From Capitulum mitella (Eukaryota > Arthropoda > Thecostraca > Pollicipedomorpha > Pollicipedidae): 64,000 nt of DNA. Where the stretch lies: contig CP099840.1 in NCBI GenBank assembly GCA_030062745.1, forward strand, positions 18,707,382 through 18,771,381. Reading direction: 5' to 3'. The notes under the pieces were generated by a model that saw nothing but the letters and a program-made list of their open reading frames with translations, was not told the DNA's origin and ran no database searches. This document shows positions 16,001 to 19,000 of the stretch, in pieces; the first letter of the stretch is position 1, and every line of letters begins with the position of its first letter. Position numbers and translations under genes: made by a program.

Positions 16001-19000
16001 CGGTCTCGGTCTCGGTCTCGTCCTCGCGCTGTCTGTCGTTCTCGTTCTCTCGTTCTCTCGCTCTTTCGCTCTATTACACTCTTGCTTTCTCGCTCTCTGT
16101 CGCTATCTGCCGCTCCCTCTCTACAAGAGCGAAAATGGGCTCAGGCCGTTTCGTTCAGTTTTCATCGTTCTCGTGTCGCAGGTTCAGGCGATGCTGCCCC
16201 TACTGGGGCTGAAGAGAAGAAGAACGGCGCGTCCGGACGTTCGGCGTCCGTCAGACCACGACACTGGAGCAGCCCCGGCGGCTCGGCGACCGAAAAAGAC
16301 CGAATTTCATACGTCAAAATCAAGTCGAGACTCATCACTGACGGAAACGTGAGGATTTTGAACACTTCCCTGACAGTGCTGAGGTTTCCTTGCTGCAAAC
16401 CGTTGGTGAACATAAAGGGGAGTGTGTTTCGAGTACAGACGCAGCAAAGTTTGGCCTGGCTGCTGATGCTTTATACGCACTCGATGTATTACTTCCAAGT
16501 CCAAACAAGTTTTCCAAATTCAAGCTCAGACTCTGTGGTTTTTCCGTGGCCTGTTTGACGTAAGTCTGGGCCACGGAGGGAGCCTGGGCATTCCGTTAAA
16601 GGCGAACAGACCACGAAAACATCAGATTAACCAAACCGCCGTATCGCATCCAGCAGGCCATCCTCGAACTCACGCTCAAAGTCCAGCTCACTGGCCAGCA
16701 CGGTTCGCTGAGGCCAGGCCGGCTGTCGCTGACCGATCCCGCTCCCGCCGACCTGACCCCATTCCCGCTGACCTGACCCCGTCCCCGCTGACCGGACCCC
16801 GTCTCCGCGGACCTGACCCCGTTCCCGCTGACCGGACCCTGTCTCCACGGACCTCGCTCTCTCTCTCTCTCTCTCTCTCTCTTCTTTTCTCTTTCTCTCT
16901 CCTCTCTTCTCTCTTCTTTTTTCCTCGCTCTCTCTCTCTCTCTCTCTCTCTCTTACGCACGACTGTGGCTGGTTTGTGTCACCCGTCTTCGCTGACTGTA
17001 CCCGTCCCCCCTGACCGATACCCGTTTCCAATGCCGGACCCGTCTCCATTAACCTGACCCCGTCCCCGCTGACCGTACCCGTCCCCGCTGACCGATACCC
17101 ATTCCCAGTGCCGGGCCCGTCTCCATTGACCGGTCGCATCCCCGCTGACCTGACCCCATCCCCGCTGACCAGACCCCGTCCCCGCTGACCGATGCATGTC
17201 TGGCGGCAGGGAGTGGTGGCGGGGACACTCCTCTTCACGCCCAACTGCCTCATGTTCAACCCGCACGTCTCGGACCCGCTGGTGGTGGAGCTCGGCGTGG
17301 ATGCATACGTGGTGGAGGTGCCGGTGACCTACATAGTGTCGGCGGCCTACTACGCGGACCTGGCTAACCTGGAGCTCGTCCGCCGGCAGACGCCGTGAGT
17401 CCGCCGGCAGACGCCGTCAGTTTGTCGGCAGACGCCGTAAGTCCGCCGGCAGACGCCGTGAGTCCTCCGGCAGACGCCGTGAGTCCGCTGGCAGACGCCA
17501 TGAGTCCTCCGGCAGACGCCGTGATTCCGCTGGCAGACGCCGTGAGTCCGCTGGCAGACGCCGTGAGTCCTCCGGCAGACGCCGTGAGTCCGCCGGCAGA
17601 CGCCGTGATTCCGCTGGCAGACGCCGTGAGTCCGCCGGCAGACGCCGTGAGTCCTCCGGCAGACGCCATGAATCCGCCATCTACCGGCCGCCCTGGCGAC
17701 CTGACAACGGTGAACGGAATATGAGCGAGAGGGATGCCGGCTCCCCTTGTGCTGAAAAGTTCGCTATGGCTCAGGTAGTTGTAAGACATTAGATCGCGTA
17801 CCTTTTGCAACATGCCTGTGCGTGAATTGAGCGGATGCGGTGTGGGTTCCAGGACACCATCGGGTGCCGTGCCGCCTGTGGAGCCTGCCAACAGTGCAGC
17901 TCAAGGCCTGGAAACACAAGCCACTGAGGGTGATGACGCCAACGTCGCTGGAGATGCCCAGCCTGCTACTGACCCAAGCCATCGCAGCGTCTGTTTAAGC
18001 CCACACGAACCATCTGAAACAGGTGACACTGCCATCGGCCAGACGGCAGCGGAAGACCCAGCGCCAACTGCTGGAGCTGAGGGCGGCCACTCGCTGTCCC
18101 GGGCCTCAGAGGGCGGCGCCGCTCCGGCTGCGGTCTCGATAGATGGCGCCCCGCCCGCCGCAGGTGCTGCGGACGGCGCCACGGTCGGCGCCGCCGCCGC
18201 CGCCGCCGAGGCTGAGGGAGGGCGGCCCAGGTCGCCGGCCTCCGACCGGTCGCCGTGCGGCCCGGCCGAGCCGGCGGCAGTGTCGCTGCCGGTCGACATT
18301 CCGGCGCCGACCTCGCCGGGCTCCGGCGGAGCCGGACAGCTGCCGAGAGGCGGCGTCAGCGGCGGCGCGGCGCCGGGCCTGGGCTGGCTGCCACCGTCCG
18401 GCCGGTTACTCCGGGCCGCCGCCGCCCTCGGACGCCGACGGCGGCTCGCCGCTCTCCAGCGTCATCCCCTTCTTCTCGTCCAGCGTGGAGAGCCAGAGGT
18501 GAGGGTGCGCTGGGCAGATCATGAAACCCCGTGTTGTACATCGTCAGACACTCCGCACGACTGTGGCTGGCTCGTGTCACTCGTCGGAAATTGTAAGAGC
18601 TTTTGAAATTCCTTTAGTTGGTGCTTCGCTGGGACCGTAGGAAGTGCGGTTGCATGGGGTACGATAATGGGTATACGGGGTTACGGGGTTGTTTCAGCTC
18701 CCGTGGCCGTTCCGTGAGTCTCCGGAGTGAGGAGGACTCGCGGCCCACCGATGGGGACGGAATGGCGCGCTGTCCTCGTTCGTCTGCCTCCGACACAGAC
18801 CAGGCTTCAGCAGATCACCAGCAACCGCCAGAAAGTCCGAAAAGCCGGTGGGTGGGCACTCGGACACGAGTCTGAACAGTGGTCGTATTAGGAATAGTGG
18901 ACGAAATTGAAAACCAATGCAGTAAATCACTTTTACTTGCCAAGCCTTGCGCTACGCCGATAACAGTGGCTTTTTACGTATTGGATGCCACGGAAAATAG

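Follow-up and report, generated by a model that had tools for sequence, protein, structure and literature searches.

A 21-bp minisatellite spanning the predicted donor junction of the GRAM-region exon in an OXR1-type gene of Capitulum mitella

The end of one exon in an OXR1-type gene of Capitulum mitella is repeated in tandem, donor site included, in the intron that follows. At issue are which of the repeated donors could serve the gene, what would become of transcripts spliced at the others, and whether the number of copies would matter. The window considered here is the whole stretch of DNA that was analyzed, 64,000 nucleotides of contig CP099840.1 (assembly GCA_030062745.1). Positions are counted from its first letter, and every exon end of the gene is predicted from the sequence.

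The plus strand of the window carries a gene of the OXR1/NCOA7 type, with LysM, GRAM, and TLDc in that order. LysM was recovered by Pfam on the joined protein (1.6e-06), and the TLDc pieces near 35.5–38.2 kb, once joined, matched Pfam TLD at 1.3e-44. Comparison of these joined pieces with PDB chains gave 4.8e-54 for the best chain named Nuclear receptor coactivator 7 and 3.2e-18 for Oxidation resistance protein 1. The GRAM region was located at 17210–17377 by tblastn with a GRAM probe sequence (5.8e-15); no Pfam match to a GRAM domain was found in the translations or the joined protein. One open frame runs across exons 15490–15643, 16182–16348, 17210–17394, and 17853–18330. The predicted exons are as follows, with a slash at the exon end.

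15490..15643 (5' edge approximate), plus strand: LysM-encoding exon, donor CAG/GTCAGC at 15644, based on Pfam LysM and a phase that fits the next exon
16182..16348, plus strand: second exon, ending in ...RLITDGN, donor AAC/GTGAGG at 16349, joined translation open
17210..17394, plus strand: GRAM-region exon of 185 nt, in phase 0, out phase 2, based on the tblastn GRAM probe and a frame check
17853..18498, plus strand: next exon, a low-complexity linker, acceptor CAG ending at 17852, donor GAG/GTGAGG at 18499, based on the frame and a donor score of 6.27
~35482–35593, plus strand: further N-terminal TLDc piece, based on tblastn pieces
35929..38189, plus strand: TLDc-encoding exons, ~18 kb downstream, based on Pfam, PDB chains, and tblastn pieces

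In the linker exon, the start is convincing in one frame, and the end looks more protein-like in another (...GSPLSSVIPFFSSSVESQR). As judged by eye, this frame change hints at an indel or an assembly error somewhere before ~18420. Long CT and CTCTCG repeats were also observed at 15815–16064 and 16853–16953, in the introns on either side of the second exon. Elsewhere in the window, the stretch 46399–48404 holds the remains of a DDE transposon, which we take to be pogo/Tigger-like, with HTH_psq (7.4e-07, 46399–47109) and DDE_1 (3.4e-07, 47075–47593); a 33-bp minisatellite, QPQQQAGQMSG-like in translation, lies after them at 47647–47931.

The array itself was delimited by Tandem Repeats Finder (TRF) at 17378–17678, with a period of 21, 14.3 copies, 88% matches, and a score of 476, and it was resolved into the following parts.

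17379..17672, plus strand: 21-bp array of 14 units, donor positions at 17395 + 21k
17673..17678, plus strand: partial 15th copy, TCCGCC, 6 bp, identical to the first 6 bp of unit 1

The array begins within the GRAM-region exon and extends 284 bp into the intron. The exon ends in VRRQTP inside unit 1, which consists of this exon end and the donor, with the donor GT at 17395. The 21-bp unit corresponds to the last 15–16 bases of the exon and the first 5–6 of the intron. The units vary at 8/21 positions, and the flanking sequence differs on either side of the array. As a repeat, the array is far beyond chance, and the TRF result together with the 14 units in register confirmed the preliminary description of a 21-bp minisatellite derived from the junction at the end of the GRAM exon. 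At lags 1–6, higher-order repeat structure reached significance in neither register, the lowest permutation p being 0.096. The 6-bp direct repeat TCCGCC both opens and closes the array, and a short flanking direct repeat is the expected trace of slippage at the birth of a minisatellite. Two stop-to-stop frames on the plus strand and three on the minus strand run through the array without a stop over its whole length or almost so. This openness is a by-product of the 21-bp period, and the two plus-strand array translations had no Pfam match; the idea that the array is coding in another frame was thus rejected.

The donor sites were then compared across the units. GTRAGT was intact in 9/14 units (1, 3, 4, 5, 8, 9, 10, 12, and 13), that is, in the natural donor of unit 1 and in 8/13 extra copies. 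The changed donors were GTCAGT in unit 2, ATGAGT in unit 6, GTGATT in units 7 and 11, and ATGAAT in unit 14. Nine of the thirteen extra copies had previously been credited with GTGAGT or GTAAGT, a count that is reached only when the natural donor is included. Nor are the nine donors consecutive, as had been stated, because the series is interrupted at units 2, 6, 7, 11, and 14 and its longest runs hold three units (3–5 and 8–10). The natural nine bases were identical in 8/9 intact sites; seven of the eight further donors match them, and one reads GCCGTAAGT. The nine donors are products of the duplication and do not count as separate events.

Donor strength was scored with a human-type weight matrix (maximum 8.63), which was applied to 4,128 plus-strand GTs. 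Units 6 and 14, which are without GT, were left out of the matrix comparison, as was the TLDc1 comparison row, which is out of register. The nine intact sites scored 0.92 (GTGAGT) or 1.04 (GTAAGT), corresponding to the 93rd–94th percentile of the 4,128 GTs, whereas four other donors of the gene scored 2.80–3.32 and the donor of the next exon scored 6.27. Moreover, the exon side (−3 to −1) was GCC in 14/14 units, all intact sites being GCC/GTRAGT, and the word "perfect" applied to these donors in the preliminary description had to be withdrawn. By the matrix, the array sites were unremarkable because nearby GTs scored alike or slightly higher, namely, 0.95 at the exon-internal GT 17324 and 1.05, 1.08, and 1.99 at the intronic GTs 17710, 17840, and 17775, respectively. 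In the case of U1 pairing energy, the nine intact sites were average at −5.2 to −5.3 kcal/mol, since the four gene donors compared above spanned −4.6 to −6.9 kcal/mol. Unit 2, the nearest competitor of the natural donor, fell to −2.99 by the matrix and to −1.2 versus −5.3 kcal/mol by U1 energy. The two measures disagree, and we take the array donors to be usable, not strong.

To predict the effect of donor choice on the protein, all 14 donor positions were joined in turn to 17853 and read to 18300, and only one junction stayed open.

17395..17395, plus strand: sole frame-preserving donor position of the array (1/14 open), junction joins to 17853

All 13 later donor positions ran into the same TGA at 17396–17398, in frame right after RRQTP, exactly as had been described. 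If used, they would act as poison splice sites in that 13/13 lead to a premature stop upstream of later predicted junctions. By the predicted exons, the stop-containing transcript would have at least four later junctions; therefore, decay is the usual expectation, and with a stop this early it is likelier than a stable LysM-GRAM protein. Of the truncated LysM-GRAM protein without TLDc proposed earlier, the stop after RRQTP was thus retained, and persistence of the product became doubtful. The proposed loss of TLDc would hold for later-donor transcripts, but it would leave part of the gene's output unaffected if short isoforms with TLDc exist here as in the fly. For fly OXR1, excerpts of PMC2887368 report short TLDc isoforms that start from separate first exons, and such isoforms, if present in this gene, would be untouched by the array stop.

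We are fairly confident in a junction-born minisatellite with a dominant first donor and slight leakage into stop-containing transcripts. A 21-bp exon–intron junction piece, bounded by TCCGCC, would have been duplicated in tandem via slippage or unequal exchange and would have grown to 14 copies, all of which after the first sit in the intron. The spliceosome would mainly pick the first donor, which leads to the complete OXR1-type protein. In a minor fraction of transcripts, splicing may occur at unit 3 or at an intact unit beyond it; such transcripts would carry the in-frame stop and would probably be decayed. Since the downstream exons encode an intact TLDc and only 17395 keeps the frame open, enough long transcripts would have to use 17395, if they matter. 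Given that 8/9 intact sites share nine bases, it would have to be position or exonic enhancers that favor the first donor. In classic SF2/ASF work, the donor closest to the acceptor reportedly tends to win, and this proximity rule would favor the later copies, against first-donor dominance. Predicted local folding does not favor unit 1 either, as its 9-mer was the least open of 14 in one setting and the third least open in the other. The array is most likely a passive repeat with slight leakage, and probably a neat but ordinary one for which close human parallels are known.

The preliminary description had proposed instead a length-variable splicing rheostat, in which more copies would pull splicing to later donors, so that copy number would determine how much of the OXR1 transcript is full-length and how much contains the stop. 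The eight further GTRAGT donors, seven of them with the natural nine bases, and the common stop reached from every later donor position are what this proposal would call for. However, the donors are not preferentially conserved. The GTGAGT hexamer is intact in 8/14 units, whereas each of the 5 hexamers inside the exonic core GGCAGACGCC is intact in 14/14. This 10-bp core (17385–17394 in unit 1) is invariant in 14/14 copies and has variable positions on either side. The invariant block gave a permutation p of 0.013; it is mildly unusual and slightly unexpected, and neutrality alone does not explain it. The 5 donor positions among the 21 hold 7/18 substitutions versus 4.3 expected if uniform, a weak test in which copies, not mutation events, were counted. 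These counts give no sign of selection for keeping donors. Moreover, unit 2, the nearest competing donor, is damaged, and in human ABCA7 the isoform retaining one repeat unit amounts to ~2% independently of repeat length, according to excerpts of PMC5954066. The rheostat was set aside as the main reading because the donors are not preferentially kept and because donor choice in the ABCA7 parallel does not respond to repeat length, and we consider it rather unlikely.

Folding of the array was evaluated as well. As RNA, the whole array folds more stably than its shuffles (z −2.53, 3 of 200 as good); as DNA, it folds no better than shuffles (z +0.50). Within a unit, the hairpin CGGC-AGAC-GCCG has −5.0 kcal/mol, and a wider hairpin whose loop contains the donor has −7.4 kcal/mol in a 27-base piece. 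Among the units with A at donor position +1, unit 6 would keep the closing pair via a change on both sides, and unit 14 would not. No claim of hairpin masking of donors is made, as unit 6 fits it and unit 14 does not.

An action of the array without donor cleavage appears unlikely. Here, U1 clusters, or the length or composition of the repeat, would alter the splicing of neighboring exons or suppress early polyadenylation. In ABCA7, skipping of the next exon (exon 19) rises and expression falls with a longer repeat, according to excerpts of PMC5954066, and the somewhat stronger RNA folding of the array is consistent with an effect of this kind, as is a branch-point-like minisatellite on the opposite side of the GRAM-region exon.

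16727..17193, plus strand: imperfect ~20-bp minisatellites in two stretches separated by a CT repeat, based on TRF, in the intron before the GRAM-region exon

However, skipping of 17853–18498 (646 nt) would shift the frame by the predicted exon ends, and the array is short, with 284 bp in the intron versus a range of 298–10678 bp in the ABCA7 excerpts (PMC5954066).

The GRAM-region exon thus has repeat arrays on both sides. In the upstream intron, CTGAC occurs 16 times in 16700–17209 (510 bp), 22-fold over the window mean density, and the last copy ends 20 nt before the exon. CTGAC is branch-point-like by consensus only; its enrichment was noticed post hoc with C-rich composition uncontrolled, and a role in splicing would be conjectural. 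We regard it as very unlikely that the two flanking minisatellites, branch-point-like upstream and donor-bearing downstream, jointly tune inclusion of the GRAM-region exon and the share of stop-containing OXR1, although, if true, repeat mutation would quickly adjust an oxidative-stress gene. It is also very unlikely that the array is an assembly artefact, whether miscounted in its copies or falsely expanded. Assemblies often get the size of tandem repeats wrong, and the frameshift that may be present in the linker exon, as judged by eye, is a hint of sequence error nearby, but the units differ in 8/21 positions and the flanks are distinct, which makes it likely that an array, whatever its exact length, exists.

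With 8/9 intact sites sharing nine bases, the array offers a natural test of how position decides between near-identical donors, and splicing at any later donor would be revealed by a transcript with the stop. If later donors proved to be used in RNA, the case would show repeat length to be capable of tuning the decay of a stress gene. At present, the array is a good example of an exon–intron junction seeding a minisatellite.

Among the matches listed, no title or abstract opening of an open paper named an OXR1 array; OXR1 was searched for on its own, apart from minisatellite or VNTR, and the result does not show that no such array has been published. One related process is intron gain by tandem genomic duplication, in which AGGT in the duplicated piece becomes both donor and acceptor, according to excerpts of a review (PMC3443670). 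As in that model, a piece with splice-site sequence was duplicated in tandem here. Unlike in that model, the extra copies sit within an intron and create none; AGGT is absent from 14/14 units, and intron gain was rejected.

Donor-spanning minisatellites are already known from human ABCA7 intron 18 and human IFI6, and the present array belongs with them because it includes the predicted canonical donor of its exon and holds further donors in 8/13 extra copies. In excerpts of PMC5954066, the ABCA7 VNTR has a 25-bp unit that begins at the exon 18 donor GT and reaches up to ~427 copies, and cycloheximide raised its stop-containing transcripts. The two arrays are alike in unit size and in being tandem repeats at an exon end that include the donor GT of that exon. 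In ABCA7, the donor of a later unit is used in some mRNA and leads to a premature stop, as is predicted for the later donors here. Unlike the ABCA7 unit, which in those excerpts starts at GT and is without exon sequence, the present unit carries 15–16 exon bases; the ABCA7 stop arises by frameshift, as 25 is not a multiple of 3, whereas with a 21-bp unit the stop is built into the junction. In the IFI6 (6-16) minisatellite, two downstream repeat units serve as donors and three mRNAs result, according to a passage of PMC4526556 that cites Turri et al. (1995, PMID 7596809). Alternative donors carried by minisatellite repeats are common to IFI6 and, by prediction, to this array, but the downstream donors of IFI6 lead to different protein isoforms in those excerpts (PMC4526556), whereas those here lead to a stop. 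The array adds one case to the two human ones.
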